Below are positions 38,404-59,295 of a DNA stretch of 64,000 nt, in pieces. Where the stretch lies: NCBI GenBank assembly GCA_035577985.1, contig DATJZY010000035.1, positions 1 through 64,000 of the forward strand, given 5' to 3'. The DNA is from Candidatus Eisenbacteria bacterium (GTDB lineage Bacteria; Desulfobacterota; Binatia; DP-6). A model generated the notes under the pieces. That model made no database searches, was not told the DNA's origin, and saw only the letters and a program-made list of their open reading frames with translations. Both the position numbers and the translations under genes were made by a program. How positions within the stretch are numbered: the first letter of the stretch is position 1; the number at the start of each line of letters is the position of its first letter.

Positions 38404-39636
38404 ATGAGCGATCCCTATTTCCAGCGCCTGTTCGCCGAACGCATCGGCGGCGCGGGCTACGGCAAGGGCACCGACATCTACAAGTTCGAGAAGATCAAGC
38501 GCGCGAAGCGGCAGGCCCTGGCCGAGCATCCGGAGCGGACGCTCATCGACTTCGGGATCGGCGAGAACGACGGCATGGCGCCGGAGAACGTGCGCCGCGT
38601 GATGGTCGAGGAGATCTCCAAGCCCGAGAACCGCGGCTACGCCGACAACGGCATCCCCGCCTTCAAGGAGGCCGTCGCGCGCTACATGCAGCGCTTCTTC
38701 GGCGTGACCGTCGATCCGGCGACCGAGGTGAACCACTGCATCGGCTCGAAGCCGGCGCTCGCGATGGTTCCCGCCTGTTTCATCAACCCCGGCGACGTGA
38801 CGCTCATGACCGTGCCCGGCTATCCGGTCGCCGGCACGCACACGAAGTACTACGGCGGCGAGGTTCATCGCCTGCCGCTCCTGCGGGAGAACCAGTTCTT
38901 CCCCGACCTCGACGGCATTCCCGCCGACGTCCGCCGGCGCGCCAAGCTGCTCGTCCTGAACTACCCGAACAGCCCGACGGGCCGCGTCGCGACGGTCGAC
39001 TTCTACCGCAAGGTGGTCGACTTCGCGCGCAAGAACGACGTCGTCGTCGTGCAGGATGCGGCACACACCTGCCTCACCTTCGAGGGCGCGCCCCTCTCGT
39101 TCCTGGCGGTGCCCGGCGCCAGGGAGGTCGGGATCGAGATCCACTCGCTTTCCAAGGGCTTCGACATGATCGGCTGGCGCATCGGCTGGTTCTGCGGCCA
39201 CCCGCGCCTCGTCCAGGCGCTCGCCGACGTGAAGGACAACAGCGACTCCGGACAGTTCATCGCCATCCAGAAGGCGGCGATCGCGGCGCTCGACGACCCG
39301 TCGATTCCCGTCCGCACGAAGACGAAGTACGAGCGGCGGCTCCGCAAGCTCGTCGCGATGCTCGGGCGCTGCGGCTTCACTTGCGAGATGCCCGGCGGCT
39401 CCTACTTCCTGTACACCCCGTCGCCGAAGGGCACCGCCGGCGGCCTGCGCTTCGAGGACGCCGAGGCGGCGAGCCAGTTCCTCATCCGCGAGCATTCGAT
39501 CGTCGTGGTGCCCTGGGACGACGCGGGACCGCACCTGCGCTTCTCGGTCACCTACGAAGCGGCGGACGAGCGGGCGGAGGACGCGCTCATGGCCGCGGCC
39601 GAGGAGCGCTTGAAGCAGATCCGCCCGGTCTTCTGA
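38404..39636 (+). CDS. dapL: LL-diaminopimelate aminotransferase-like class I/II aminotransferase
   Basis: This PLP aminotransferase has 410 residues. Motifs are the substrate/PLP segments TLIDFGIGENDGMAPENV, GYADNGIPAFKEAVARYM, NHCIGSKPALAM, VLNYPNSPTG, VVVQDAAHTCLTF and the Schiff-base Lys251 in HSLSKGFDMIGWRIGW. Overall it looks like the DapL group, which makes LL-diaminopimelate from tetrahydrodipicolinate in one step for lysine and peptidoglycan. The N-terminus differs from plant-type DapL, so a related amino-acid substrate cannot be excluded. A methyltransferase gene follows after two bases. Confidence 0.82.
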   Translation: MSDPYFQRLFAERIGGAGYGKGTDIYKFEKIKRAKRQALAEHPERTLIDFGIGENDGMAPENVRRVMVEEISKPENRGYADNGIPAFKEAVARYMQRFFGVTVDPATEVNHCIGSKPALAMVPACFINPGDVTLMTVPGYPVAGTHTKYYGGEVHRLPLLRENQFFPDLDGIPADVRRRAKLLVLNYPNSPTGRVATVDFYRKVVDFARKNDVVVVQDAAHTCLTFEGAPLSFLAVPGAREVGIEIHSLSKGFDMIGWRIGWFCGHPRLVQALADVKDNSDSGQFIAIQKAAIAALDDPSIPVRTKTKYERRLRKLVAMLGRCGFTCEMPGGSYFLYTPSPKGTAGGLRFEDAEAASQFLIREHSIVVVPWDDAGPHLRFSVTYEAADERAEDALMAAAEERLKQIRPVF

Positions 39637-40425: not shown

Positions 40426-40800
40426 TCAAGCCGCGGACAGCAGCCCGATCTGCTTCAGCTGCTCGACGACCGCCGCCTTCGCGAACGGCTTCATGATGTA
40501 GGCGTCGACGCCGGCGCCGAGCGCCTTCACGACGCGCGTCATCTCGGTCTCGGTCGTCACCATGACGAGGCGCAGCGCGTCGAACTCGCGCTCGGCGCGC
40601 ACGGCCTGCACGAACTCGAACCCGTTCATCTCTGGCATGTTCCAGTCGACGAGCGCCAGGTCGGTGCAGCCGATCTCGTGCAGGCGCTCGAGGGCCTCGC
40701 GACCGTTGTCGGCCTCGAACACCTCGAAGCCGAGCTCGGCGAGAATGCGTCCGAGGACCGCACGCATGGCCCTGGAATCGTCGATGATGATCGCTCGCAT
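40426..40800 (-). CDS. cheY: CheY-like response regulator
   Basis: This single-domain receiver of 124 residues has Asp7-Asp8, phospho-acceptor Asp52 (ALVDWNMPEMNG), Thr-Thr switch (VMVTTETEMT) and Lys in YIMKPF. GAGGTG precedes the ATG. It lies 10 bases after cheX on the left-reading arm of the chemosensory locus. CheX is a CheY-P phosphatase, so this CheY is its probable substrate, distinct from the second CheY at 46225. The output (flagellar or pilus motor) is unknown; pilT is in the window, and no flagellar gene is. Confidence 0.93.
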   Translation of the reverse strand: MRAIIIDDSRAMRAVLGRILAELGFEVFEADNGREALERLHEIGCTDLALVDWNMPEMNGFEFVQAVRAEREFDALRLVMVTTETEMTRVVKALGAGVDAYIMKPFAKAAVVEQLKQIGLLSAA

Positions 40801-40810
40801 CGTTGGCACC

Positions 40811-41266
40811 TCAACTCGCCGAGGCGGTCCGAATGATGACGACCGCCAGTGGCTCACCTTCGCAGTCGAAAAAGACCCGGGAGAGCATCAGGCTGCCGGG
40901 CTGGCGCGGCACGGTCGATCCGCTCCACACCGACGGCATCGAGAGCTCGCACGGACCGGGGAGCACCTCCATCAGGTTGCCGCCGGTGACGTTCGCGAGC
41001 TCGCGCAGCGCGTCCTCGGCCTGCGCCGCACTGATGGCGGTGCGGTCGAGCGCGAACATGATGGCGGCGGCCCGGTGCGCGAGCTCGGACGAGCACTGCA
41101 CGCGGACCTCGCCGTCCCACGCGCCGCTGATGCGAACCGTCCCTGCCCACGCGTCGTCGACGCCGGACGCCGGCGGCGCCGGCAGCCGCTGGACGTCGAG
41201 CCCGAGCAGCGTCGACCAGACGGTCTCGACCACCTGCTGGATCGAGTTCGTGAGCGGGGCACTCAT
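40811..41266 (-). CDS. cheX: Chemotaxis phosphatase CheX-like protein
   Basis: The product has 151 residues. The CheX/CheC fold is shown by the N-terminal helix SAPLTNSIQQVVETVWSTLL, the phosphatase helix signature (E-x2-N) in EDALRELANVTGGNLMEVLPG, and a strand with SLMLSRVFFDCEGEPLAVVII. It would dephosphorylate CheY and reset signalling. It is the first gene of the left-reading cheX-cheY pair and is divergent from cheA across a 193-base gap that holds the sigma-54 promoter. Confidence 0.85.
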   Translation of the reverse strand: MSAPLTNSIQQVVETVWSTLLGLDVQRLPAPPASGVDDAWAGTVRISGAWDGEVRVQCSSELAHRAAAIMFALDRTAISAAQAEDALRELANVTGGNLMEVLPGPCELSMPSVWSGSTVPRQPGSLMLSRVFFDCEGEPLAVVIIRTASAS

Positions 41267-41459: not shown

Positions 41460-43103
41460 ATGGATCCCGTGGTGGAGATCTTCTTCGAGGAGGCGGCCGA
41501 GCTGCTCGCCGACTTCGAGGCCGGGCTGCTCGAGCTCGAGGAGTCGCACGGGGACGCCGAGCTCCTCAACCGCATCTTCCGCGCCGCCCATACGATCAAG
41601 GGCAACGCGGGCATGCTCGGGTTCGAGGAACTCGCCCGCTTCACCCACGGGCTCGAGTTCCTTCTCGAGCAGATCCGCAGCGGCGCACGCTCGGTCACCA
41701 CGGACGTCATCGAGGCCCTGCTGTCGGCCGCCGACGTCGTGCGCCGGATGCTGCGCACGCAGCAGACCGGCGCCGAGCCGAGCACGACCGAGATCGAGGT
41801 CGCGCAGGCGGTCCTCGATCGCCTGCAGGCCGCACCGGTCACCCACGGCCAGGTGGCGACCGCCGATCGGCACCATCCGAAGGCGTCGGCGCGTCCGACC
41901 GCGGGCGCGCAGATCACCAGCATCCGCGTCCCCATCGCCAAGGTCGACCGCTTGATCAATCTCGTGAGCGAGCTCGTCACCACGCAGTCGATCGTCGCAC
42001 AGGGCGTCGCCAACTTCTCGCCCGACCGGCTGGCCGCGCTCGCCGAATCGGTCGCCCAGATGGACCGGCACGCGCGCGCCCTGCACGAGCACGTGCTCGC
42101 CGTCCGCATGATTCCCGTTCGATCGCTGTTCGCGAGCTTTCCGCGCCTGGTGCGCGACGTCGCCGCGGCGCTCGACAAGGAGGCGGTGCTCGAGATCTCG
42201 GGCGAGGACACGGAGCTCGACCGGACCGTCATCGAGCGGATCGGCGATCCGCTGACGCACCTGATCCGCAACGCCGTGGACCACGGCCTCGAGCCGCCCG
42301 AGGAGCGCACGGCGGCCGGCAAACCCGCCGCGGGCCGCATCCGCCTGAACGCCTACCAACAGGGCGGCAACATCTACATCGAGGTCTCCGACGACGGGCG
42401 CGGCCTCGACCGCGACCGCATCGTCGCCAAGGCGGAGCGGCACGGCCTCATCGCCCCCGGCCACCAGGCCACCGACGCCGAGGTCTGGGCACTCATCTTC
42501 CAGCCCGGGTTCTCGACTGCGGAGGCGGTGACGCAGGTTTCCGGCCGTGGCGTCGGCATGGACGTGGTGCGCGAGAACGTCGAAGCGCTCGGCGGGATCA
42601 TCACCATCGACACCGAGTCCGGCCGCGGCACGAGCTTCCGCATCAAGCTGCCGCTCACGCTGGCGATCCTCGACGGCCAGGCCATCCGGGTCGGCTCGCA
42701 GGAGTACATCATTCCCCTGGTCGCCATCCGGGAGACCATTCGCCCGGAGCGCGGCAGCGTGCACACGGTCGGCCCCGGCGCCGAGCTGGTGGTGGTGCAC
42801 GGCAAGCCCCTCCCCGTCCTGCGGCTCCACCGCGTGTTCGGTGTGACGCCCGGGACCGAGGATCCAGCGAGGGGATTGCTCATGATCGTCGAGTACGACG
42901 GCCGTCTGGCCGCGTTGCTCGTCGACGAGCTGCTCAGCCAGCAGCAGGTCGTGATCAAGAGCCTCGAGGCCAACTTCATCAAGGTCGACGGCGTCGCCGG
43001 CGCCACGATCCTGGGAGACGGCCGCGTCGCGCTGATCCTCGACGTCGCGGGTCTGATCGCGCTCGCCAACACCGACTCGGCCCGGCTGCGGGCCGTTGCC
43101 TGA
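41460..43103 (+). CDS. cheA: Chemotaxis histidine kinase CheA, short form without P2
   Basis: This kinase couples receptors to CheY and CheB. The 547-residue product has a P1 (1-105) with phospho-His44 in [14 protein letters not shown], a linker, P3 dimerisation helices (about 150-215), P4 ATPase ([43 protein letters not shown]) and a P5 CheW-like domain (about 405-547). There is no P2 CheY-docking domain between P1 and P3, so response regulators must dock directly on P1, as in Frz-like or gliding systems. A G7 run precedes the ATG, but with the sigma-54 start it would lie upstream of the mRNA. Confidence 0.95.
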
Positions 43104-43116
43104 CAAGGAGCGAGGA

Positions 43117-44820
43117 ATGAGGCAGGGCATTGGGAACTGGACCATCCGGACGAAGCTGCTCTTGAGCTTCGTCGTGGTCGGCGCGCTCGTCGCCGTCGTC
43201 GGGCTGCTCGCCAGCCGGCGGGTCGACGCCATCGGCAACGCCCTGCAGGAGATCGTCCAGGGCAACCAGGAGATGGCGCAGCAGAGCCGCCTGCGCACCG
43301 GCATGCTGCAGCAGATCGAGGCCGAGAAGAACTATCTCCTCTCCGGCTACGGCAAGTACGTCGACGTCCACCGCAAGCTCGCCCACGAGAACGACGAGCT
43401 CTTGAAGGCGCTCCAGACGTCCGCGGACGGTGACGACGAGAAGGCCACGACGCTGCGCGCGCTCGCGGGCTCGTACAACGAATACAAGGAGAGCTTCGAC
43501 CAGGTCCAGCAGATGATCGCCGATCAGAAGACCGACGCGGCGATCTTCCACTCGACGACCCGCTCGGGCGCGATCGCCGAGAAGCTCATCAGCCTCTCGG
43601 ACGAGCTGCGGGACCGGCACGAGGCGCGCGACCAGCTCGCGGCGGCGGAGGCGCGCGAGACCGTGCGGAGCGCCCACGTCTTCATGATCTCGGTCTCGAT
43701 CATCGCGATGGCGCTCGCCATCGCGTTCGGCTACCTGACGAGCCGCCTCGTCACGCGTCCCGTGCAGGAGACCTGCGCGCTGCTGCAGGAGCTCGCCCAG
43801 GGCGACGGCGATCTCACCCGGCGCCTGCCCGCCGACCGCGACGACGAGATCGGCCAGATGGCGCGCTGGTTCAACACGTTCGTCGAGAAGCTCCATGGCA
43901 TCGTCGCGCAGGTGGCCGAATCCGCGGAGTGGACCGGCGCGACGGCCCAGCAGCTCGCCACGGCGAGCCAGCAGCTCTCGAGCGGCGCGCAGGAGCAGGC
44001 CTCGAGCCTCGAGGAGACGGCGGCGAGCCTCGAGCAGATCACCGCCACCGTCAAGCAGAACGCCGACAACGCGCGGCAGGCGAACCAGCTCGCGACGGCC
44101 TCGCGCGAGACGGCCGACAAGGGACGGCAGGTCGTCACCTCGGCGGTGGGCGCCATGGGCGAGATCAACCACGCCGCCCGGCAGATCGCCGACATCATCA
44201 ACGTGATCGACGAGATCGCGTTCCAGACGAACCTCCTGGCGCTCAACGCCGCGGTCGAAGCCGCGCGTGCCGGCGAGCAGGGGCGCGGCTTCGCCGTCGT
44301 CGCGGCCGAGGTCCGCAACCTCGCGCAGCGCTCGGCCACGGCGGCCAAGGAGATCAAGGGCCTCATCCAGGACTCCGCCACGAAGGTGGAGACGGGCTCC
44401 GGCCTCGTCGACACTTCGGGCCGTACGCTCGAGGAGATCGTCGTCTCCGTGCGACGCGTGACCGACATCATCGCCGAGATCAGCGCCGCCTCGCAGGAGC
44501 AGTCCCAAGGCATCGACCAGGTGAACCGCGCCGTCGCGCAGATGGACAACGTCACGCAGGCGACCGCGGCGCAGACCGAGCAGGTGTCGGCGACCGCCCA
44601 GTCGCTCGCCGCGCAAGCCGAGCAGCTCCAGGTGCTGGTCGGACGCTTCAAGCTCGGGTCTACGCGGGCGCGAGCGGTCGAAGCCACCGGGAGCGCGCCG
44701 GCGACGCCCGAGCTCGCATCCGCCCTGCCCCCCACCGCCCCGCCGTCGCGTATGCCGGCGCCCGCGGCGGACGTGAAGGGCTGGGCGGCCAGCCTCGACT
44801 CGGACTTCGAGGAGTTCTGA
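43117..44820 (+). CDS. Methyl-accepting chemotaxis protein
   Basis: This transmembrane receptor has 567 residues. TM1 is about 13-33 ([20 protein letters not shown]). The periplasmic region (34-190) is helical and polar. TM2 is about 190-211, HAMP about 212-265. The signalling helix pair ends at the tip [20 protein letters not shown] (about 366-385), with Glu/Gln pairs for methylation on both arms. A Pro/Ala linker leads to the terminal DSDFEEF, which resembles the xWxxF peptide that tethers CheR and CheB, with Phe for Trp. AAGGAG lies upstream, and the start is 13 bases after cheA. Confidence 0.95.
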
Positions 44821-44827
44821 GGGCGCC

Positions 44828-45322
44828 ATGGCTCGACTCGATCCGCTCCACAATCTCGGTTCCTCCGCCGCCGACGGCGTCCAGTACCTCACCTTCTCGC
44901 TCGGTGCCGAGGAGTACGGTGTCGAGATCCTGAAGGTGCAGGAGATCAAGGGCTACACGACGATCACGCCCATCCCGAGCACGCCACCGTACGTGAAGGG
45001 CGTCATGAACCTGCGCGGCACGATCGTCCCGGTCGTCGACCTGCGTCTGCGGCTCGGCATGCCCGCGGCCGAGTGCACGCCGTTCACGGTCATCATCGTG
45101 ATGGCGGTCGGCACCAAGGTGGTGGGCGCGATCGTCGACAGCGTCTCGGACGTCGTCGACGTGCCGCGCGACGACATCCAGACGACGCCCCACTTCGGTA
45201 GCGGCGTGGACGTCCGCTACATCGCGGGCATCGCGCAGACGGGCGAGAAGCTGATCGTCCTGCTCGACGTCGACGCCGTGCTCCGCAGCGAGGAGTTGCC
45301 AGCGCCCCTTCCCGCCTCGTGA
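44828..45322 (+). CDS. cheW: Chemotaxis adaptor CheW
   Basis: This 164-residue protein has the double SH3-like CheW fold: VQYLTFSLGAEEYGVEILKV, EIKGYTTITPIPSTPPYVKG, VMNLRGTIVPVVDLRLRLGM and the second-half IVDSVSDVVDVPRDDI, IAGIAQTGEKLIVLLDVD. It bridges the receptor tip and CheA-P5. It starts seven bases after mcp, with no strong ribosome site. A Gly/Asn/Arg pattern around NLRG is conserved as expected for CheA binding. Confidence 0.96.
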   Translation: MARLDPLHNLGSSAADGVQYLTFSLGAEEYGVEILKVQEIKGYTTITPIPSTPPYVKGVMNLRGTIVPVVDLRLRLGMPAAECTPFTVIIVMAVGTKVVGAIVDSVSDVVDVPRDDIQTTPHFGSGVDVRYIAGIAQTGEKLIVLLDVDAVLRSEELPAPLPAS

Positions 45323-45335
45323 TCGGCCGGCCCGC

Positions 45336-46205
45336 ATGATGCCCGACGCGCCCACGCAGCCGAGCAGCATGACCGGCCTGGAGTTCCAGGTCTTCCGGGA
45401 TCTCGTGCATCGCGAGACGGGCATCGCCCTCGGACCCCACAAGCGCACGCTGCTCGAAGCGCGGCTTACCAAGCGGCTGCGGGCGCTGCGCCTGCCGTCG
45501 TTCAGCGCCTACCTCGAGGTGCTGCGCCGGCACGACCCCCAGGGCGAGGAGCGCACGCGGTTCGTGAACGCCATCACGACGAACGAGACGGCCTTCTTCC
45601 GCGAGCAGGTCCATTTCACCTACCTCGCGTCCGAGTGGCTCCCGGCGCGCCGCGCGCGCGCGTCGGCGACCGGCGACCGCACGATCCGCATCTGGGCCGC
45701 GGCCTGCAGCACGGGCGAGGAGCCGTACTCGATCGCCATGACGATCCTCGCCGGCATGGACACCCTCGCCTGGGACGTGCGGATCCTCGCCTCCGACATC
45801 GACACCGACGTCCTCGACCGCGCCGCCGCAGGCGTCTACACGAACGATGCGGCGGCCGTCGTGCCGACGCCGCTGCTCCATCGCTTCTTCCTGCGCGGGG
45901 TCGGGCCGCGCAGCGGGATGGTCCGCGTCCGCCCCGAGGTGCGGTCGCTCGTCACGTTCCGCCACATCAACCTGCTCGAAACGCCCTGGCCGATCCGCTC
46001 GCGCTTCGACCTGATCTTCTGCCGCAACGTGCTCATGTACTTCGACCGGCCGACCCAGATCCAGATCGTCACGCGCCTGGCACAGCACCTGGTTCCGGGC
46101 GGGCTGCTCGCGCTGGGGCACGCCGAGAACCTCCTCGGTCTCGCGACCGACATGCGGCGCGTGACCAGCACCATCTATCGGCACGCCGAGGCGCCTCCCG
46201 CATGA
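45336..46205 (+). CDS. cheR: Chemotaxis protein methyltransferase CheR
   Basis: This enzyme methylates receptor glutamates with S-adenosylmethionine. It is 289 residues long, the usual length. It has an N-terminal four-helix domain (FRDLVHRETGIALGPHKRTL), TTNETAFFREQVHF, the SAM pocket IRIWAAACSTGEEPYSIAMT, LASDIDTDVLDRAAAG, FRHINLLE and FDLIFCRNVLMYFDRPTQ. Two adjacent ATG codons (45336, 45339) can start it. Whether its beta-subdomain can bind the DFEEF tail of the neighbouring receptor is an open and testable point. Confidence 0.96.
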   Translation: MMPDAPTQPSSMTGLEFQVFRDLVHRETGIALGPHKRTLLEARLTKRLRALRLPSFSAYLEVLRRHDPQGEERTRFVNAITTNETAFFREQVHFTYLASEWLPARRARASATGDRTIRIWAAACSTGEEPYSIAMTILAGMDTLAWDVRILASDIDTDVLDRAAAGVYTNDAAAVVPTPLLHRFFLRGVGPRSGMVRVRPEVRSLVTFRHINLLETPWPIRSRFDLIFCRNVLMYFDRPTQIQIVTRLAQHLVPGGLLALGHAENLLGLATDMRRVTSTIYRHAEAPPA

Positions 46206-46224: not shown

Positions 46225-46599
46225 ATGCCATCAACCATCCTGATCGTCGACGATTCGACCACGATCCGCGCCATGGTACGGCGCGCGCTCGAAGAGGATC
46301 GCCACGAGGTGCTGGAGGCCTCGCACGGGGCTGCGGCGCTCGCCGCGCTCGAGCAGGCGAACGCCGACCTCGTCATCACGGACCTCTTGATGCCCGGCAT
46401 GGACGGCCTCGCCTTGACGCGCGCGCTGCGTGCGAGCGAGCGCTTCCGCGCCACGCCGATCCTGGTCCTGACCACCGAGGGCGGCGGCTCGATGAAGGAG
46501 CAAGGCCGCGCCGCGGGCGCGACCGGATGGCTCGTGAAGCCCTTCCAACCCGACGTCCTCCGGCAGACGGTCCGGCGCGTCCTCGAGCAGCGCGCGTGA
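46225..46599 (+). CDS. CheY-like response regulator (second)
   Basis: This receiver-only protein has 124 residues: [20 protein letters not shown], Asp9-Asp10, phospho-acceptor Asp53 ([13 protein letters not shown]), the switch Thr in LVLTTEGG and Lys in WLVKPFQP. It lies between cheR and cheD. Its TGA overlaps the GTG of cheD. Two CheYs in one locus suggest either a phosphate sink or separate outputs. Confidence 0.94.
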
Positions 46600-47138
46600 C
46601 GTACGAGAAGATCATCACCCTGCACGTGGGCGGCGTCCACGCATCGGCCGAGCCGACCGTCATCAAGACGCTGCTCGGATCGTGCATCGCCGTCTGCCTG
46701 TGGGATCCGCGGGCGCGGATCGGGGGCATGAACCACTTCATGCTGCCCGAGGGTCGTGGCGACGGCTCGATCGAAGACGCGACCCGTTTCGGCGTGCATG
46801 CCATGGACCGCCTGATCGGCGAGATGCTGAAGCTCGGCGCCGAGCCGCGCCGGTTCGCCGTGAAGGTCTTCGGCGGCGCCAGCGTGCTCGCGCTGAAGGG
46901 CGCGGCGAGCGTCCCGCAAGCCAACGTGGAGTTCGTCCGGACCTTCCTCGCCCGCGAGGGGTTCCACCTCGCCGCCAAGAGCGTCGGTGGGACGTATCCG
47001 CGGCAGGTCCACTTCTTCACCGAATCGGGGAAGGCGCTCGTGCGCCGGGTGGTAGGGCCCCAGGTCGAAGCCGCCCTCCTCGAGCAGGAGCAGCGCCGGC
47101 GGCCGCGGCCGCAATTCGGCGACGTGACCCTCTTCTGA
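46596..47138 (+). CDS. cheD: Chemoreceptor glutamine deamidase CheD
   Basis: This 180-residue enzyme deamidates receptor glutamines and in some species stimulates the CheC-type phosphatase. It has the thiol-hydrolase core [20 protein letters not shown] with the catalytic Cys, MNHFMLPEG with the catalytic His, [12 protein letters not shown], and [20 protein letters not shown]. The start is GTG 46596, overlapping the preceding TGA, because the coding frame upstream has no family likeness. The presence of CheX on the other arm fits a CheD-CheX regulatory pair. Confidence 0.94.
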
Positions 47139-47149
47139 GGCCGGACGGG

Positions 47150-48253
47150 ATGGCGCGCAAGATCAAAGTCCTCGTCGTCGACGACTCGGCGGTCGTGCGG
47201 CAGATCCTCGCCAGCTCGCTCGCGCGCGATCCCGGGATCGAGGTGGTGGGGACGGCGCCGGACCCGTACATCGCCTGGGAGAAGATCCGCGCCCTCGCCC
47301 CGGACGTGCTCACGCTCGACGTCGAGATGCCGCGCATGGACGGCCTCGCGTTCCTGCAGATGCTCATGCGCCGCCATCCGATGCCGGTCGTCATGGTCTC
47401 GTCGCTGACGGAAGCCGGCTGCGCCACGACGCTGCGCGCGCTCGAGCTCGGCGCCGTCGACTTCGTCACCAAGCCCATGACGTCGATCGCCGAGCGGCTG
47501 CCGGAGCTGGCGCGCGAGCTGATCGAGAAGGTCCACGCCGCGTCGACCGCACGCGTGCGCCTCCCGTCGGCGTCTCCGAGCCCGGTACCGGTCGCCTCGC
47601 CCGCCCTGCCGCGCACCACCCACCGAATCATCGCGATCGGCGCGTCGACCGGCGGGACGGAGGCGCTGCGCGAGTTCCTCGTCGCGCTCCCGGCCGACGC
47701 GCCGGGCGTGGTGATCGTGCAGCACATGCCCGAGAAGTTCACCCACGCCTTCGCCGAGCGGCTCGACCGCCTCTGCCGCGTGAGCGTGAAGGAGGCCGAG
47801 GACGGCGATCGGGTGCTCGCCGGCCACGCCCTCATCGCACCCGGCAATCAGCACATGCGGCTCGCGCGCGACGGCGCGACGTATCGCGTCCGCCTCGGCA
47901 TGGAGGCGCCGGTCAACCGCCATCGCCCGTCGGTCGACGTGCTGTTCCAGTCCTGCGCCGAGGTCGGCGGCGCCAACGTCGTCGGCGTGATCATGACCGG
48001 CATGGGCGACGATGGAGCCCGCGGGCTGCTCACGATGCGGCGGGCCGGCGCACGGACGCTGGCCCAGGACGAGGCGAGCTGCGTCGTCTTCGGCATGCCG
48101 CGGATCGCAATCGAGATCGGGGCCGCGGAACGCGTCCTGCCGCTCGCCCGTCTCGCGGAGGCGGCGCTGCTCGGCTGTCACGACGCGCATGCGCCGGGCC
48201 GTGCAGGGACGCCCGATTCGGGCGCCACGACGACCGGTCTGTCAGCGAAATGA
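47150..48253 (+). CDS. cheB: Protein-glutamate methylesterase CheB
   Basis: This response-regulated methylesterase/deamidase has 367 residues. It has a receiver with Asp57 ([13 protein letters not shown]), a Ser/Pro/Ala linker (about 135-158), and a catalytic domain with the triad in [12 protein letters not shown] (Ser), VIVQHMP (His) and [12 protein letters not shown] (Asp). It demethylates receptors to reset adaptation and closes the canonical part of the operon. The gene starts 11 bases after cheD. The terminal 30 residues are a low-complexity tail. Confidence 0.96.
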
Positions 48254-48299
48254 CACGCGCCACGCCGAGCCTCGGCTTCTCACTCGAATATGCCGACAC

Positions 48300-48305
48300 T
48301 ATCCT
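48300..48305 (+). promoter_or_regulatory. Possible -10 box before coiled-coil gene
   Basis: TATCCT lies six bases before GTG 48312, like other close-set boxes here, so the coiled-coil gene may have its own promoter as well as read-through from cheB. No -35 was recognised. Confidence 0.35.
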
Positions 48306-48311
48306 GTGAAC

Positions 48312-51050
48312 GTGGTGGAGGAGTCTGCGCCGTCGGCGTCGACCTTCAAATCGATGCAGTCCGGAACGTCGAGTAGCGATCCCGCCGGGTCGGCGGGACC
48401 CGGGCACGTGCCCGTTGCGGCGGGGGATCGCTCCCCCGTCGACGCGCTCGCGCAGAGCGCGCTCGCCGCGATTCGTGACGTGAGCCTGGAAGTCGCGCGC
48501 CTGCTGTGCGCGACCGCGACGCGGGTGACCGACGGTACCCCGATGGCGCCGCTCGTCCGGGCCCTGCTGGGCGACGTCCGCGCGTCGCTCGAAGGCCACG
48601 CGACCCCGCCCGGCGTCACCGCCTGGGCCGCGCGCGTCGCCGACGCCGAGCAGGCGCTGGCGCTCGCCGTGCAACGCGCAACCCAGCTCGAGGAACGCCT
48701 CGAGCGCACCGTGCTCGAGCTGCGCGAAGCCGGCGATCGCGAGCGCGCGCTGCGGGGCGAGCTCTCGGCGACGCTGGAGCGCACGTGCGCCGAACGCGAG
48801 TCCATCGGGCGACGCGCGGACGAGCTGGCCGCCATCGCCGAGGAGCGGCGCGCCGCGGCCGCGCGCGAGGCGGAGTCGGCGCGCGCCCAGCTCGCCACCG
48901 TCCAGCAGGCGTCGCTCGCGCAGCGCAACGAGCTCTCCCTCGCGCGCAGCGAGACTGCGCGCCTCGGCGCCATTGCCGAGGAGGCGCAGCACGCTCGGAC
49001 GAAGCTCGAGGAGGAGGCGCAGGCGCTGCGGGCGCGTCTCTCGGAGGCTCAGGAGAAGGCGCGCAGCCTCGAGATCGATCGCGCGCGCGCCGCGGAAGAG
49101 CGCCGGCGCGCCGAGCGGTCGGCGCAGGGCGAGCAGGCCGAGCGCGAGGCCCGCTGGCAGGAGGAGCTGTCGGAGCTCCGCCTCGAGCACGGGCGCGAGC
49201 GCGACCGGGCGCAGGTGCTGGCCGAGCAGCTCGAGCGGCAGCGGGTCGAGGTCGAGTCGAACGAGCGCCGCGAGCTGCGTCTCCGCGAGGAGCTGCGCGA
49301 GGTCACAGCCCGGGCCGAGGCCGACCGTGAAGAGACCGTCCGGCGCGCGCAGGAGATGGTTCAGGCGGCGGAGCGTGCTCGCGCCGCGGCGAACGCCGAG
49401 CTCGAGGCGATCCGCTCCGCGCTCTCGAACGACAAGGCCCGCCTCCACCAGATCCAAGCCGAGCAGGTGCGCGCCGAGCAGGGTGTCGCCGAGCGCGAAG
49501 CCGCGCTCTCGAGTGCCCAGGGCATCATCCAGCAGCTCGAGGCGAGCCGCGCCGCCGCCGCCGCCGAGGCCGAGACCGCCCGCGCACAGCTTGCCGAGAC
49601 CGAGAGCAAGCTCTGGGCGCTCCAACACGAGCTGCGACTGGCGCAACGCCAGCTCGACAAGCTGTGCACCGCGCACGACGACCTCGTGGAGGATCACGCC
49701 CGCACCTCTGCCCTCCTCGACGGCGCGCACGCGACCGAGACGAACCTGTGGGCGCAGACCGACGATCTCCGCGGCCAGATCCGGGCTCTCGAAGCCGAGC
49801 GCACCCGGTTGCTCGAGATCGAGCGCAAGTACCAGGAGTCGGGAGGGCAGCACGCCGACGCCTCGGAGCGCGTCACGAAGCTCGAGGCCGAGCTCGAGGG
49901 CCTGCGGCGGTGGGTTCGGACCGTCGAGGGCGAGGTCGCGCAGAGCACCGCGTCGCTCGAGCAGTCGGCCCTTCGCGAACGACGCCTGCAGGAAGCGCTC
50001 GCCGCGACCGAGGCGAGCATGCGCGAGCACGAGGAGACGCTGCGCGAGGCGCGGGAGATCGCCGACGCCGCAGAGCGCGAGCGCGCGACGGCCGCCGCCG
50101 AGCTGGAGGCCCTGCGCACGGCGATGGCGTCGGCACAGCGGGTCGTGCTCGAGGCCGAAGCCGAGACGCGCGTGGCGCGCGCCGAAGCCGAACGTCTCGC
50201 CGTCGCGCAGGAGGCGACGCTGGCCGAGCAGCAGCGTTTGAAGGCGGGCCTCGCCGACCCCAAGGCGAGCGAGACGACGCCGCCGGAGCCCTCGGCGCCC
50301 AAGGCGGCGGCGCGCCCGGCCGCGCCGGCGAAGCCCGTGGGGCCCGTATCCCTCGAGGGGAAGACGCTCGTCGTCCTGGACGCCGGCGTGGAGTGGCCGG
50401 CGGCCGCGGGAGGGGTCGAGGTGCGCGTCCTCACGCCCGGCGAATCCGTTGCGGGCGAAATCGCAGGCATCGAGACGGGGGCCTGCATCGTCAACGTCGC
50501 GCGCGCCGACGCGCTGACCTCCGCGGTCGCGCTGCGCACGGCGGGCGTCTCGGTGCCGTTTTGGGCGGTTGTGGTGGCGAACGACGGGGACCGGGGGATC
50601 TGGCTGGGGCCGATCGACATCCTCGTTCGACCGATCGAGGCCGATGCCGTCCGCGCACAGTGCACCATGATCGCGCCGAAGAGCGCGCGCATCCTCGCTG
50701 TCGGCTCCGACAGCGCGACCTTCATCCCGTTGCGGCAGGGCCTCATGAAGGCCGGCATGTCGGTCTCGATCGCGTGGGACCTGAAGCAGGCGAGCGAGCT
50801 GATCGACATCGTGCATCCGCACGTCGTCGTGCTCGACCTGGGATTGCCCGCGCGGCGCGCCGCGAGCTTCGTCGCCGAGCTGTCCCGCGTCCAGGCGCCC
50901 CCCGCGCTCGTCGTGATCCCCGGGCCCGCCGAGACGTTGAGCGCGTTCAGCAACGCGATCGTCTCGCACATCCCGGCCGAGGGGGCGCGCACGCGCGCGA
51001 ATCTGCTGCGCCGCGCGACCGACGCGGCGACCAAGCCGGGCGGCGCCTAG
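48312..51050 (+). CDS. Long coiled-coil protein with two C-terminal degenerate receiver domains
   Basis: The product has about 912 residues. Residues about 35-105 are helical. About 110-660 is one continuous Ala/Glu/Arg-rich coiled coil (LEERLERTVLELREAGDRER; RARAAANAELEAIRSALSND). A Pro/Ala hinge follows (about 655-680), then two tandem receiver-like domains. The first (about 683-790) lacks the phospho-Asp. The second (about 790-905) keeps Asp842 in HVVVLDLGLPARRA but lacks the usual DD pair and Lys. There is no membrane segment. Starts at 48306, 48315 or ATG 48354 are also possible. Architecture resembles myxobacterial FrzS and AglZ turned around. It follows cheB by 58 bases and probably acts in the same chemosensory output. 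Confidence 0.85.
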   Translation: MVEESAPSASTFKSMQSGTSSSDPAGSAGPGHVPVAAGDRSPVDALAQSALAAIRDVSLEVARLLCATATRVTDGTPMAPLVRALLGDVRASLEGHATPPGVTAWAARVADAEQALALAVQRATQLEERLERTVLELREAGDRERALRGELSATLERTCAERESIGRRADELAAIAEERRAAAAREAESARAQLATVQQASLAQRNELSLARSETARLGAIAEEAQHARTKLEEEAQALRARLSEAQEKARSLEIDRARAAEERRRAERSAQGEQAEREARWQEELSELRLEHGRERDRAQVLAEQLERQRVEVESNERRELRLREELREVTARAEADREETVRRAQEMVQAAERARAAANAELEAIRSALSNDKARLHQIQAEQVRAEQGVAEREAALSSAQGIIQQLEASRAAAAAEAETARAQLAETESKLWALQHELRLAQRQLDKLCTAHDDLVEDHARTSALLDGAHATETNLWAQTDDLRGQIRALEAERTRLLEIERKYQESGGQHADASERVTKLEAELEGLRRWVRTVEGEVAQSTASLEQSALRERRLQEALAATEASMREHEETLREAREIADAAERERATAAAELEALRTAMASAQRVVLEAEAETRVARAEAERLAVAQEATLAEQQRLKAGLADPKASETTPPEPSAPKAAARPAAPAKPVGPVSLEGKTLVVLDAGVEWPAAAGGVEVRVLTPGESVAGEIAGIETGACIVNVARADALTSAVALRTAGVSVPFWAVVVANDGDRGIWLGPIDILVRPIEADAVRAQCTMIAPKSARILAVGSDSATFIPLRQGLMKAGMSVSIAWDLKQASELIDIVHPHVVVLDLGLPARRAASFVAELSRVQAPPALVVIPGPAETLSAFSNAIVSHIPAEGARTRANLLRRATDAATKPGGA

Positions 51051-51098: not shown

Positions 51099-51857
51099 GT
51101 GGCTGCGGACGACCCTGGCTCGACCGACGCTCTGCAGCTCGAGCATGCGGAGCTCCCCGACGCGCCGCTCGTCTGTGCCGGCTGCGGCGTCCCGATCGGC
51201 GACACCTACTTCGAGGTGAACGGGCGCGTCGTGTGCCCGTCGTGCCAGGGCCGCATCGTCGAGGCGCGCGCAGCGGGATCCGGTGCCGGCCGCCTCGTCG
51301 CGGCGGCCCTGCTCGGGGTCGGCGCGGCCGCGTTGGGCGCAATCGTCTGGTACGGGATTCGCGAGGTGACGGGCTACGAAGTGGGGCTCGTCGCCATCGG
51401 CGTCGGTCTCCTGGTCGGCGTCGCGGTCCAGCGCGGCTCGGGAGGTCGGGGCGGCGTGCCGTATCAGATCCTGGCCGTCGCCCTCACGTACCTCTCCATC
51501 GTCTCGGCGAACGCGCCGTACGTCTGGCAGGGGATCCGCATGGGCGTCGCGCGGCAGATCGACGCGCGCCGGGCGGGACAGACGCCGGACGTCGCCGCGG
51601 CGCAAGCGAAGACGCCGCCGAGCACCGAGGCCGAGGCGCAGGCCGACGAGTTCATGCACCACCTCCCCGCGGCGGCGTGGCTCACGATGGGGGCGATCGT
51701 GCTCGGCTCGCCGTTCATGGGCGGCTTCAAGAACGCCATCGGCTGGCTGATCATCTTCTTCGGGCTCCAGCAGGCGTGGCGACTCACCCGGAGGGCGCCG
51801 CTCAAGATCGCTGGCCCGTTCGCGCTCTCGGCGCGTCCGGCAAGCGGCGCCACGTGA
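51099..51857 (+). CDS. Zinc-ribbon membrane protein of unknown function
   Basis: The product has about 252 residues. The N-terminal zinc ribbon (about 23-45, CAGCGVPIGDTYFEVNGRVVCPSC) resembles the short ribbon seen before membrane domains. It is followed by four to five hydrophobic helices (LVAAALLGVGAAALGAIVWYG; YEVGLVAIGVGLLVGVAV; PYQILAVALTYLSIVS; LTMGAIVLGSPFMGGF; AIGWLIIFFGLQQAWRL). GTG 51099 is chosen because it directly follows the promoter, and the frame upstream lacks coding character. GTGA overlap with the M50 gene makes a translationally coupled pair. Confidence 0.82.
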   Translation: MAADDPGSTDALQLEHAELPDAPLVCAGCGVPIGDTYFEVNGRVVCPSCQGRIVEARAAGSGAGRLVAAALLGVGAAALGAIVWYGIREVTGYEVGLVAIGVGLLVGVAVQRGSGGRGGVPYQILAVALTYLSIVSANAPYVWQGIRMGVARQIDARRAGQTPDVAAAQAKTPPSTEAEAQADEFMHHLPAAAWLTMGAIVLGSPFMGGFKNAIGWLIIFFGLQQAWRLTRRAPLKIAGPFALSARPASGAT

Positions 51858-53673: not shown

Positions 53674-56600
53674 ATGCGAGTGGCAGGTGCGGTCGTCGTA
53701 CTCGTCGTGGCAGCGGGGATCGCGGCCGGCGCGGCGAGGCCGGCGACGCCCGGGATCCGCTTCACGCCGCAGGGAATCGTGAAGCGCGTGCGGCAGGTGG
53801 TCGCCGTCTTTCCCGAAGCGATGGTGGCGCTCGGCGATCCGCGGCCGGTGGCCGATCCGTTCCAGGTCGAGTGCGCGGCGCCGGGAACGGGGCGGTGGAT
53901 CGACACGCGCACGTGGACCTACGACTTCGAGCGCGACCTGCCGTCGGGGCTCCAGTGCCGCTTCCGCCTGGCGGCGGGCGTGCAGTCGCTCGCCGGCCGC
54001 CCGATCGTCGACGCCACCACCTACGAGCTCTCGACCGGCGGCCCCGCCGTCCGTGCCGAGGAGCCGCCCGACGACGGCACGATCGTGGAGGACCAGGTGT
54101 TCCTGCTCGCGCTCGACGGGCCGGTCGACGAGGCGTCGGTCGCAACGCAGGCGTACTTCGCGGTCGAGGGACTTCCGGAGCGGATCCCGCTGCGGGTCCT
54201 CCCGGCGGCCGATCGCGACGCCGTCATCCGGAGCGTCACGTACTGGGACAAGAGCGCGCCGTCGATCGCGGTCCAGGCCGAGCGGCGATTCCCGAACGGC
54301 GCCAAGGTCCACCTTCGATGGGAGGCGGGCATCCGTTCGCCGAGCGGTGTTGCGACACGTGACCCGCAGGTCCTCGATTTCACCGTCCGCGACGCCTTCT
54401 CGGCCGAGGTCGCGTGTGATCACGAGACGTCGCACGCGGGCTGCATCCCGCTGACGCCGATCGTGGTGCGCTTCACGGCACCCGTCGCGACGGCGCTCGC
54501 GCACGCGATGGCGCTCGTCGCCCCAGACGGCCGCCGATGGTCGCCCGAAGAAGCCGCGACATTCGTGCCCACCGTGCGCCGCGTCCGCTTCGTGCCGCCC
54601 TTCCCGCCCAAGAGTGAGCTGCGGATCGAGCTGCCCTCCGGTCTCGTCGACGAGGAGGGCCGCGCGCTCGAGGGCGCCGGCGTCCTCGCCCAGCCGATCC
54701 ACACCGACGGCTACCCGCCGCTCGCGAAGTTCGCGGGCCGCTTCGGCATCATCGAAGCGAAGGCCGATCCCGCGCTGCCGGTGACGGTACGAAACCTCGA
54801 GCCAGACGCCGCCGCGAGCATCGCGCAGATCCGCGGGGTCATGGCGCGCATTCCCGCCGACGACGTCCCCGCGATGCTCGGGTGGCTGCGACGGGTCGGC
54901 AGCGCGCAACGTGACCGGTCGGTGTTCGCATCCGCCAAGCCCGCGCCGCAACGGACGTCGTTCACGCTCCCGCAGGCGAAGGAGAACGACGCCTTCGAGG
55001 TGATCGGCATCCCGCTCACGCAGCCGGGGCTCTACGTCGTCGAGCTCGCGAGCACACGCCTCGGAACGGCGCTCCTCGAGAAGCCGGCGCCGCTCTACGT
55101 GCCCACGGCCGCGCTGGTCACGGACCTCGGCGTGCACTTCAAGTGGGGGCGCGAGCGGTCGCTCGCATGGGTGACGTCGCTCGAGACCGGCAAGCCGGTG
55201 GCGGGCGCGCGCGTGCGCGTCGCCGACTGCCGCGGCACGGTGCACGCGACCGGCACCAGCGACGCACAGGGCCTCGTGTGGACGGGCGCGCTGCCGTCGG
55301 CGAGCGACCTGCCCGCCTGCAACGATCCCGCGCAGGAGAGCGAAGACGCCTACACCGACGGGCGGGAGATCGAAGCGCTCTCGAGCCTCGCCGGCGGGCT
55401 CCTCGTGGTCGCAGAGACGGACGACGACGTGAGCTTCGTCCACTCGTCCTGGACCCGCGGCATCGAGCCCTGGCGCTTCCGCCTGCCCGAGCGGGGCTGG
55501 AGCGGTCCGGTGGCCGCGCACACGGTGCTCGATCGGACGCTCTTCCGCGCCGGCGAGACGGTGCACATGAAGCACATCCTGCGCCGCCAGACGCTGGCGG
55601 GCTTCGATGCCGTGCCGGCCGCCGAGCGCCCGACGAAGGTCATCGTCCGTCACGAGGGGAGCGACGAGCGCTACGAGCTCGGCGTTGCGTGGGGCGAGAC
55701 CGGGGCGGCCGAAACGACGTGGGACATCCCGCCATTCGCGAAGCTCGGTGCGTACGAGATCGTGCTCGCAACGGCGGCGCCGCCGGACGAGCCCTGGCGC
55801 CGCAATGAATGGACGAGTGGGGGATTCCGCGTCGAGGAGTTCCGCGTGCCGCTCATGCGCGGCACGCTGCGGCTGCCGACCGAGCCGCCGCTCGGCGGGA
55901 GCGTCGTCGCCGCCGACGTCGCGGTGCAGTACCTCGCCGGCGGTCCCGCGGGGAACCTCCCCGTGGTCCTGCGCGCCGAGACGCGCCCGGAGCCCTACGA
56001 CACGCCGGATCGCCTGGCCGGCTACATCTTCTCGAACGGCCCCGTTCGCGAGGAGACCACGCGCGGCGGCGACGACTACGATGAGGACGGCGACGACCGC
56101 CAAGACGCGGGCAAGCCCATGCTGCTCGGCCGCCGCGAGGTGACGCTCGACGCCGCCGGCACGGCTCGCATCGAGCTCCCGAGCCTCCCCGCGACCGACG
56201 TCCCCCGCCGGCTCACGACCGAGCTCGAGTTCCGCGATCCGAACGGCGAGGTGCAGACGGCGTCGGCCCGCACCACCGTCTGGCCGGCACGCGTCTGCGC
56301 GGGCATCAAGGCGCGCGATTGGGCCAAGACGCGCGGAGACCTCCGCGCCCAGGTCGTCGTGCTCGATCTCGGGGGCCGGCCGGCGGGCAACGTGCCCGTG
56401 CGCGTCACCGCCTTCGAAGAGAAGATCTACTCGACGCGCAAGCGCGTGATCGGCGGCTTCTACGCCTACGAGCACGTGCGCGAGGTGCGCCGCGTCGGCG
56501 AGCTCTGCCGCGGCACGACGAGCGCCGGCGGCCACTTCAAGTGCGAGGGCCGCCCGAGCGTCGAGGGCGAGATCGTGCTGCAGGTCGAGGCGACCGACCG

Positions 56601-59295
56601 CGACGGGCGGACGAGCGCCGCCAACACGCACGTCTGGGTCGGGCGCGGCGACGAGTTCTGGTTCGCCGCCGACGACCACGACCGCATGGACGTGCTGGCC
56701 GAGCAGCGCCGCTACGAGCCGGGCGAGACGGCGCGGCTCCAGGTGCGGACGCCGTTCCGCCAGGCGACGGCGCTCGTGACGCTCGAGCGCGAGGGCGTGC
56801 TCGACGCGCGGGTCGTGCCCCTCGACGCGACCGATCCCGTCGTCGAGGTGCCGATCCGCGACAGCTATGCGCCCAACATGTTCGTGTCGGTGCTCGCCGT
56901 GCGCGGTCGCGTCGGCGACGTACAGCCGACGGCGATGGTGGACCTCGGGCGCCCGACCTTCAAGCTCGGGATCGCCGAGCTGCGCGTCGGCTGGCGCGCC
57001 CACGAGCTGCAGGTGCGCGTCGAGCCGGATCGCGAGGTCTACCGCGTGCGCGACCGCGCCACCGTGCGCGTCGCCGTGCGAACGCCCGGTGGCGCGCCGC
57101 CGCCGCCCGGCAGCGAGGTCGCGATGGCGGCGGTGGACGAGGGTCTGCTCGAGCTGTCGCCGAACCGCAGCTGGAACCTGCTCGACGCCATGATGTCGCT
57201 GCGCGGCTACTCCGTCACGACGGCGACGGCCGCGATGCAGGTGGTGGGCAAGCGCCACTTCGGGCGCAAGGCGCTGCCCTCGGGCGGCGGCGGAGGCCGG
57301 CAGGCGACGCGCGAGCTGTTCGACACGCTGCTCCTGTGGCGTGCGAGCGTACCGCTCGACGCCGATGGCCGCGCGACGGTCGAGATCCCCCTCAACGACT
57401 CCCTCACGAGCTTCCGCATCGTCGCGGTCGCGACCGGCGCGCTCGGCAAGTTCGGGACCGGCGCCGCATCGATCCGCGCCTCGCAGGACCTGATGCTGTT
57501 CTCCGGCCTGCCGCCGCTCGTTCGTGACGGCGATCGGTTCCGCGCCGAGCTCACCGTGCGCAACGCGACCACGCGGCCGATGACCGTCGAGGTCCGGGCG
57601 ACCGCGCCGGCCCTTGCGGCGCCCCTCGCGCCGCAGTCGCTGCCCCTCGCCGCCGGCGAGGGACGCGTCGTCGGCTGGGACGTCACGGTGCCGGCGTCGG
57701 ACGCGCCGCTCGCGTACACGTTCGAAGCCGGCGAGGCGGGCGGGCCGCAGGACCGCCTGGCGGTGACCCAGCAGGTTCGCCCTGCCGTGCCCGAGCGCAC
57801 GCTGGCGGCGACGCTGCTCCAGCTCGCGGGCAGCTCGAGCGTGCCCGTGGCGCGGCCCGTGGACGCGCTGCCCGATCGCGGCGGCATCGACGTCACCATG
57901 TCGCCGTCGCTCGGCGTCGGGCTCGACGGCGCGCGCGACTGGATGCGGCGCTATCCCTACGGCTGCCTCGAGCAGCGCGTCTCGCGCGCCGTCGCACTCG
58001 GCGACGCGCGCGTGCGCGACGACGTCCTGGGTGCGCTGCCGAGCCACCTCGACGGCGCCGGCCTCCTGAAGTTCTTCCCGACCACGCAGAACGGCAGCGA
58101 GGTCCTGACGGCGTACGTGCTGTCGATCGCGCGCGCGGCAGGCTGGACGCTCCCGCCGAGCGTCGTCGACCGCACGACGGCCGGTCTCGCCTCCTTCGTC
58201 GATGGACGCCTGCGGCCGGACACGACGGTCCGCGGCGCCGATCTCGTGCTGCGCAAGCTGGCCGCCGTCGCCGCCCTCGCCGCCTGGGGCAAAGCCGAGG
58301 CGCGATCGCTCGGCGGCATCGTCGTCGAGCCGAATCTGTGGCCCACCTCGGCCGTCCTCGACTGGTGGGCGATCCTGCGCGCGCTGCCGGCGATCCCGAA
58401 TCGGGACGCCCATCTCCGCGACGTCGAGCAGATCCTGCGCGGCCGCCTCGACCTCTCGGGAACGACCCTGCGCTTTTCGGGCCCGGGAGACCACGAGCTC
58501 TGGTGGCTCCTCGTGAGCCCCGAGACGAACGGGGCACGCCTCCTGCTGCTCGCGCAGAGCGAGCCCGCCTGGCACGACGATCTGCCACGGATCGTCCGGG
58601 GGCTCCTCGCGCTGCAGCAGCGCGGGTCGTGGTCGACCACGACCGCCAATGCCTGGGGTACCGTCGCCGTCGAGGCGTTCGCCAAGGCGTTCGAGTCCGA
58701 GCCCGTCGCGGGGCGTACCACCGTGTCCCTCGGCCCGGAGACCCGCGTGTACGGCTGGGACGGCGCGCCGGGCGGCGGGACCCTCCACTTCCCGTGGTCG
58801 CCGGCCGACACGCTTGCGCTGCTGCAGGCGGGCAGCGGCAAGCCCTGGGCGATCGTTCAGGCTCGGGCCGCCCTCCCGCTGACCGCACCGCTCGCCAACG
58901 GCTACCGCGTGACGAAGACGGTGACGCCGCTCGATCACGGGTCGGGGCCGCTGCGCCGCGGCGATCGCGCGCGCGTGCGGCTCGACGTCGACGCGGAAGC
59001 CGACATGGGATGGGTCGTGGTGAACGACCCCGTGCCGGCCGGCACGTCGCACATCCGGACCGAGCCGCCGGCCGACGATCCGGCGTCGTCCTTCGCCCCG
59101 CCCACGTTCGCCGAGCGCGCCTTCGACTCGTTCCGCGCCTATTTCGCGTACGTCTCGAAGGGCGCGCTGCGTGTCGAGTACACGATCCGGCTGAACCAGA
59201 CGGGACGCTTCCAGCTTCCTCCGACGCGGGTCGAAGCGCTGTATGCCCCCGAGGTCTTCGGGGAGCTGCCGAACGCGCCGGTCGAGGTCGAGTAG
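53674..59295 (+). CDS. Bacterial alpha-2-macroglobulin-like protease trap
   Basis: This protein inhibits proteases by trapping them and forming a thioester-derived bond. It has 1873 residues. A signal peptide (1-20) lacks a lipobox Cys, so the protein should be soluble in the periplasm or secreted, unlike E. coli YfhM. MG-type beta domains fill the first 1100 residues (GLVWTGALP; VDEGLLELSPNRSWN). The thioester motif YPYGCLEQR has Cys1431-Leu-Glu-Gln1434, followed by the helical thioester domain and a receptor-binding-like C-terminus. It sits two bases upstream of PBP1C, the classical yfhM-pbpC arrangement. Confidence 0.94.
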   Translation: MRVAGAVVVLVVAAGIAAGAARPATPGIRFTPQGIVKRVRQVVAVFPEAMVALGDPRPVADPFQVECAAPGTGRWIDTRTWTYDFERDLPSGLQCRFRLAAGVQSLAGRPIVDATTYELSTGGPAVRAEEPPDDGTIVEDQVFLLALDGPVDEASVATQAYFAVEGLPERIPLRVLPAADRDAVIRSVTYWDKSAPSIAVQAERRFPNGAKVHLRWEAGIRSPSGVATRDPQVLDFTVRDAFSAEVACDHETSHAGCIPLTPIVVRFTAPVATALAHAMALVAPDGRRWSPEEAATFVPTVRRVRFVPPFPPKSELRIELPSGLVDEEGRALEGAGVLAQPIHTDGYPPLAKFAGRFGIIEAKADPALPVTVRNLEPDAAASIAQIRGVMARIPADDVPAMLGWLRRVGSAQRDRSVFASAKPAPQRTSFTLPQAKENDAFEVIGIPLTQPGLYVVELASTRLGTALLEKPAPLYVPTAALVTDLGVHFKWGRERSLAWVTSLETGKPVAGARVRVADCRGTVHATGTSDAQGLVWTGALPSASDLPACNDPAQESEDAYTDGREIEALSSLAGGLLVVAETDDDVSFVHSSWTRGIEPWRFRLPERGWSGPVAAHTVLDRTLFRAGETVHMKHILRRQTLAGFDAVPAAERPTKVIVRHEGSDERYELGVAWGETGAAETTWDIPPFAKLGAYEIVLATAAPPDEPWRRNEWTSGGFRVEEFRVPLMRGTLRLPTEPPLGGSVVAADVAVQYLAGGPAGNLPVVLRAETRPEPYDTPDRLAGYIFSNGPVREETTRGGDDYDEDGDDRQDAGKPMLLGRREVTLDAAGTARIELPSLPATDVPRRLTTELEFRDPNGEVQTASARTTVWPARVCAGIKARDWAKTRGDLRAQVVVLDLGGRPAGNVPVRVTAFEEKIYSTRKRVIGGFYAYEHVREVRRVGELCRGTTSAGGHFKCEGRPSVEGEIVLQVEATDRDGRTSAANTHVWVGRGDEFWFAADDHDRMDVLAEQRRYEPGETARLQVRTPFRQATALVTLEREGVLDARVVPLDATDPVVEVPIRDSYAPNMFVSVLAVRGRVGDVQPTAMVDLGRPTFKLGIAELRVGWRAHELQVRVEPDREVYRVRDRATVRVAVRTPGGAPPPPGSEVAMAAVDEGLLELSPNRSWNLLDAMMSLRGYSVTTATAAMQVVGKRHFGRKALPSGGGGGRQATRELFDTLLLWRASVPLDADGRATVEIPLNDSLTSFRIVAVATGALGKFGTGAASIRASQDLMLFSGLPPLVRDGDRFRAELTVRNATTRPMTVEVRATAPALAAPLAPQSLPLAAGEGRVVGWDVTVPASDAPLAYTFEAGEAGGPQDRLAVTQQVRPAVPERTLAATLLQLAGSSSVPVARPVDALPDRGGIDVTMSPSLGVGLDGARDWMRRYPYGCLEQRVSRAVALGDARVRDDVLGALPSHLDGAGLLKFFPTTQNGSEVLTAYVLSIARAAGWTLPPSVVDRTTAGLASFVDGRLRPDTTVRGADLVLRKLAAVAALAAWGKAEARSLGGIVVEPNLWPTSAVLDWWAILRALPAIPNRDAHLRDVEQILRGRLDLSGTTLRFSGPGDHELWWLLVSPETNGARLLLLAQSEPAWHDDLPRIVRGLLALQQRGSWSTTTANAWGTVAVEAFAKAFESEPVAGRTTVSLGPETRVYGWDGAPGGGTLHFPWSPADTLALLQAGSGKPWAIVQARAALPLTAPLANGYRVTKTVTPLDHGSGPLRRGDRARVRLDVDAEADMGWVVVNDPVPAGTSHIRTEPPADDPASSFAPPTFAERAFDSFRAYFAYVSKGALRVEYTIRLNQTGRFQLPPTRVEALYAPEVFGELPNAPVEVE

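Follow-up and report, generated by a model that had tools for sequence, protein, structure and literature searches.

Results

The locus and its chemosensory operon

The whole stretch of DNA analysed here, 64,000 nucleotides long and called the window below, carries a chemosensory operon whose last gene encodes a long coiled-coil protein. On the forward strand, cheA (41460..43103) is followed by genes for a methyl-accepting chemotaxis protein (MCP; 43117..44820), CheW (44828..45322), CheR (45336..46205), CheY (46225..46599), CheD (46596..47138) and CheB (47150..48253), and then by the coiled-coil gene. A CheX phosphatase gene (40811..41266; PF13690) and a second cheY-like receiver gene (40426..40767) lie divergently on the reverse strand. 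Two further forward-strand genes served as synteny markers: an aminotransferase gene upstream (38404..39636), 84% identical in G001, a genome of a sister genus, and a gene for an alpha-2-macroglobulin-like protein downstream (53674..59295), 49% identical there.

The encoded CheA contains Hpt, H-kinase_dim, HATPase and CheW domains only, that is, one Hpt, no P2 and no C-terminal receiver; the P2-less kinase of the preliminary description was thus correctly recognized. This is the only chemosensory system in the genome, which also encodes the flagellar protein FlhA. With CheD and CheX present, no ChpA-like kinase and FlhA in the genome, the operon looks flagellar-type, and it does not contain the multi-Hpt CheA with a C-terminal receiver that marks Chp/Pil-type systems. 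A pilT gene does lie within the window, as had been pointed out (9998-10987), but because the operon looks flagellar its presence is not informative. Elsewhere in the window, a gene at 23957-25141 joins a response-regulator receiver to a beta-lactamase-superfamily domain; its neighbour encodes a hybrid histidine kinase with Hpt.

The coiled-coil gene occupies 48312..51050 of the forward strand and encodes 912 amino acids when read from the GTG at 48312. Its frame is open from 47997 to 51050 and the start codon is uncertain, with an ATG at 48357 and a GTG at 48408 as alternatives. The nearest upstream gene end is the cheB stop at 48253 on the same strand, which leaves 58-154 bases depending on the start chosen (58 for GTG 48312), so the gene does sit directly behind cheB as described at the outset. 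Neither a terminator-like nor a sigma-70-like site was found between the two genes, a scan that is weak evidence in such GC-rich DNA. Close behind follow two co-directional genes (51099-52843), one with a weak match to a DksA/TraR-type zinc finger and the next with a match to peptidase M50, which may extend the operon.

A proline-free coiled coil ends in two pseudo-receivers

Numbered from GTG 48312, the protein begins with a short helical region. Residues 100-650 (48609..50261, forward strand) then form its longest proline-free run, with a strong hydrophobic periodicity of 3.5 residues (0.52; none of 500 shuffles exceeded 0.31), in agreement with the 550-residue coiled coil first noted. A linker rich in proline and alanine (50262..50360), placed by its proline positions and by the low pLDDT that the model of the module shows over residues 1-11, leads on the same strand into two tandem receiver-like domains, REC1 (50361..50681) and REC2 (50682..51047).

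The C-terminus had been read as two receiver-like domains, and a structure prediction had been called for. Pfam alone recognizes little of this in the window protein: PF00072 matches REC2 only, below the cut-off (E 5e-4), and it is in the relatives that the receivers exceed the cut-off. An AlphaFold2 model of the twin module, built from a seven-row alignment, returned the receiver fold with a pLDDT of 84.5 and a pTM of 0.84. Strands and helices alternate in both halves of the model; helices 1 and 4 are missing from REC1, and in REC2 only two residues of strand 5 remain in the DSSP line. When the module was submitted to Foldseek many of the matches were receivers, as were most top matches of REC1 alone, there with weak E-values (best 0.02). 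A family profile made from 28 diverse modules matches PDB receivers across both halves. Against PleD it covers both receivers, with a whole-sequence E of 5e-12, and it aligns REC1 to the second PleD receiver, including the Asn at the phosphosite and the Arg-Pro in strand 5. FrzS was absent among the best 60 PDB matches listed for this profile.

An alignment of 72 relatives indicates which switch residues have been lost. The position of the phospho-Asp in REC1 is occupied by Asn (codon 50493..50495, forward strand) in all 72, confirming that one of the domains has no phospho-Asp at all. REC2 carries an Asp at its phosphosite (codon 50835..50837, forward strand), which is Asp in 59/72 relatives and His in 13/72 and which is kept in 23/23 rows of the window's group and 19/19 rows of the che-labelled group. 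In none of the 72 does the Mg-binding pair of REC2 retain its first acidic residue, which has given way to Gly, Ser or other non-acidic residues, and the position of the switch Thr is taken by Pro or another residue. Under a published definition (PMC12632262), both domains are therefore, judging from these residues, pseudo-receivers: REC1 is an aspartate-less receiver resembling the second receiver of PleD, and REC2 counts as a pseudo-receiver despite its phosphosite Asp because the Mg-binding pair is lost. Neither is predicted to be able to act as an ordinary phosphorylation switch.

The twin module defines a family in Binatia

A profile search found the module in 41/148 genomes of the class (Binatia, Candidatus Binatota, of which UTPRO1 is an order (PMC8262859)), a slightly high count, since four of the weakest matches turned out to be ordinary receivers and were excluded from the tree. 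The window genome holds six copies, and its family-level relatives (n=6) hold one to five each at the protein-search threshold. The usual layout in the window's own family is GAF-coiled coil-REC-REC, with the genes scattered. A scan of genome contigs with the module gave six loci only, all from members of the class. In a sample of 395 genomes from elsewhere in the phylum, the best-scoring matches look like hybrid kinases. The eight matched genomes considered there as sources of relatives outside the class were rejected: what they encode seems to be hybrid kinases whose receivers are ordinary, a call made from kinase-like matches in the same ORFs.

The window protein shares the features of this family, namely Asn in REC1, Asp or His in REC2 and the tandem arrangement, and we found no published description of a coiled coil with C-terminal twin receivers in the literature searched, where a look for Geobacter che clusters also came up empty. 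The twin pseudo-receiver module is an undescribed protein family in the class Binatia, and the window protein is a coiled-coil pseudo-response regulator, a known type of protein in a new layout. In the sister genus, a GAF-like frame at 8954-9886 (L026, contig C1 of G001) lies upstream of a twin-receiver gene in a different reading frame, either as a separate gene or through a frameshift.

Chemosensory linkage is secondary for the window gene

In the module tree, the window copy falls inside a 23-row group of families f1 and f7 as sister to its own paralogue L021 (support 100/99), so that its closest module relative lies in the same genome. It stands outside the che-linked clade described below with strong support, even though it adjoins cheB. 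L021, which is not beside che genes, also lacks a GAF domain and has its N-terminal region in common with the window protein (z 9.1). The idea that the GAF domain was lost through insertion of the che operon is unsupported, since the unlinked L021 is GAF-less too and has the same N-terminal region.

No chemotaxis operon was found beside any other copy in the window's own family, L021 included; in genome G003, one copy has a CheR-CheB pair that stands by itself a few kilobases away. At the same locus in G001, the two marker genes, for the aminotransferase and the alpha-2-macroglobulin-like protein, flank a module gene that has no che neighbours, and the G001 che operon lies elsewhere, without a twin-receiver gene. 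Searches for CheA in three genomes that carry the module and are 99-100% complete (G003, G005 and G024) gave no match. For the window's family, the tree and the G001 locus lead us to reject che linkage as ancestral and general.

A separate clade is repeatedly linked to Pil-Chp-like operons

A clade that unites 24 modules of the families f6, f11, f13 and f15 (support 98/94) behaves differently. Seventeen of its 24 copies, in 15 genomes, are che-linked, four are unlinked, and three could not be judged at contig ends; two rows from genome G025, where the contig ends first, were not counted as linked, and L090, which directly follows a CheA fragment, was. Often a linked copy immediately follows cheB or cheA in a Pil-Chp-like operon, and at L080 cheB and the coiled-coil gene overlap. 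In f13, the operon encodes a CheW-DUF4388 protein, two response regulators, CheW, an MCP, CheR, CheA, CheB and the coiled-coil protein, and its CheA has three Hpt matches and a C-terminal receiver; it resembles Pil-Chp. The CheA encoded in the operon of the relative L121 carries several Hpt domains and ends in a receiver. FlhA was absent from 9/9 genomes tested of f11, f13 and f15, and PilT was present in 9/9. The window CheA groups with the CheA of G001, apart from the Chp-like CheAs. Since both the window copy and its CheA group stand apart from the che-linked clade, che linkage was acquired at least twice.

The preliminary description had treated the che association as part of what the protein is and had proposed a survey of homologues' neighbourhoods. 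That survey upholds the association for one clade, in 17 of 24 copies, and does not uphold it as a defining trait, given the unlinked copies of the window's own family, the G001 locus and the genomes lacking CheA. Pure coincidence, which the close relatives alone would suggest, is weakened as an account by the cheB- and cheA-adjacent copies in other families. At class level the che association is real; for the window gene it is secondary, this copy having been recruited to the single che operon of the organism, which is flagellar-type.

Several arrangements were noted in passing. A CheW-like domain fused to DUF4388 opens the Chp-like operon at L121 (5117-6127), and the first genes at L122 and L124 look similar. 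At L066 and L084 (f11), a che operon closes with a tandem pair of twin-receiver coiled-coil genes, which belong to two separate subclades. A GAF-coiled coil-REC-REC gene of f7 adjoins a motA/motB-like pair in three genomes (L106, L110 and L077), a hint of another motility link. Members of the module family are thus repeatedly associated with motility systems, through che operons in four bacterial families and a motA/motB-like pair in f7.

Discussion

Pseudo-receivers joined to long coiled coils are known from chemosensory and motility systems, and the closest comparison, already drawn in the preliminary description, is with FrzS and AglZ of Myxococcus. FrzS of M. xanthus combines a pseudo-receiver that works without Asp phosphorylation with a long coiled coil and is tied to such a system (PMC1974792, PMC11580455), ingredients that the window protein shares. 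However, FrzS has one receiver, at its N-terminus (PMC1974792), whereas the window protein has two at its C-terminus and does not show the order of N-terminal receiver followed by coiled coil that characterizes FrzS and AglZ; the reversed layout that had been remarked upon is thus real, and homology to these proteins is evident in the receiver fold only. For the receiver pair itself, PleD of Caulobacter is the better comparison. It also has two adjacent receivers, the second of which is an adaptor pseudo-receiver with the same Asn and Arg-Pro as REC1. In contrast to PleD, the PleD-second-like domain comes first in the window protein, no GGDEF domain follows, and the other receiver has lost its Mg pocket as well. 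The pseudo-receiver of PleD takes part in dimerization (PMC12632262).

The operons of the che-linked relatives can be compared with Pil-Chp of Pseudomonas, a system with the polar hubs FimV and FimL: both have two response regulators, CheW, an MCP, CheR, a multi-Hpt CheA with a C-terminal receiver, and CheB. Among the Pil-Chp components found in PMC12632253, none corresponds to the coiled-coil twin-receiver protein, and the window operon differs further in being flagellar-type, with CheD and CheX. The window protein has the same module and overall layout as the che-linked Binatia clade, whose members also often lie directly behind cheB or cheA, but it falls outside that clade and beside a different CheA lineage.

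We give about an even chance to the explanation that the window protein is a phosphorylation-independent scaffold or adaptor with a pseudo-receiver head, a GAF-less paralogue placed behind cheB that serves the che operon. The long coiled coil would dimerize and provide the scaffold, and the receiver pair would most likely form a docking or dimerization head that works independently of phosphorylation, as in the receiver/pseudo-receiver stem of PleD. This GAF-less member of the family would have been placed after cheB in a flagellar-type operon that is the one chemosensory system of the organism. Presumably co-expressed with that operon, the protein would scaffold or localize che components, or connect them to a further partner. 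A broader version is that twin pseudo-receiver coiled coils are a general chemosensory accessory of Binatia that pilus-type and flagellar-type che operons each acquired on their own, where they would act as phosphorylation-independent scaffolds like FrzS or FimV with a PleD-like docking head; we consider this rather unlikely.

The che neighbourhood could also be incidental, the protein being a general GAF-coiled coil-REC-REC signalling scaffold upstream of which a che operon was inserted or moved by chance. The G001 locus, where the gene stands between the same two markers with no che operon, fits this account, as do the sister paralogue and the rest of the clade, none of them beside chemotaxis operons, and the CheA-less genomes that retain the module. 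Yet with six copies among roughly five thousand genes, the chance of one adjoining the only che operon is by our estimate about 0.2%, the gene lies a short distance after cheB in the same orientation, and proteins of the same type are che-linked in a separate clade. We regard an incidental neighbourhood as somewhat unlikely. A mistaken join of the che operon and the coiled-coil gene in the draft genome would be a more trivial source of the same adjacency. The assembly is fragmented, with an estimated contamination of 3.5%, but both flanks have close counterparts at one G001 locus, the window CheA groups with that of G001, the closest module relative comes from the same genome and the ORFs show no break, so that we find an artefact scarcely credible.

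Other accounts give the protein a different task. A polarity role of the FrzS/AglZ type, in which the protein would sit at the pole and recruit pilus or flagellar regulators, is possible by analogy, given the two shared ingredients and the Pil-Chp-like operons of the che-linked clade, whose genomes encode PilT and, in f11, f13 and f15, lack FlhA. We think it improbable for the window protein, whose domain order is reversed, which has two receivers rather than one and whose operon looks flagellar rather than pilus-type; moreover, REC1 best matches the second receiver of PleD with FrzS missing from the best 60 PDB matches listed, and roadblock (Robl_LC7, MglB-type) proteins are absent in 15/15 genomes examined, the window's included. 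It is also conceivable that REC2 still takes phosphate from CheA, which would make the protein a phosphate sink or an unusual output regulator. Its Asp is kept throughout both the window's and the che-labelled group, and the gene is encoded beside cheA. The loss of the first acidic Mg-pair residue in all 72 relatives, the replaced switch Thr and the reduced strand 5 make this very unlikely.

If the role is chemosensory, a class of uncultured soil bacteria would possess a scaffold type undescribed for Che or Pil-Chp systems, and the repeated recruitment to che operons would itself be evidence of function. How pseudo-receivers switch without phosphorylation has been described as an open question (PMC12632262), and it could be approached through the many natural variants in this family, in which one Asn substitution is invariant and the receivers stand in tandem. 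One further paralogue in the window genome (L025, 6838-7548 of contig C120 in G000) is a 236-residue protein that consists of the twin pseudo-receiver module alone with no coiled coil, and the module is therefore testable in isolation.
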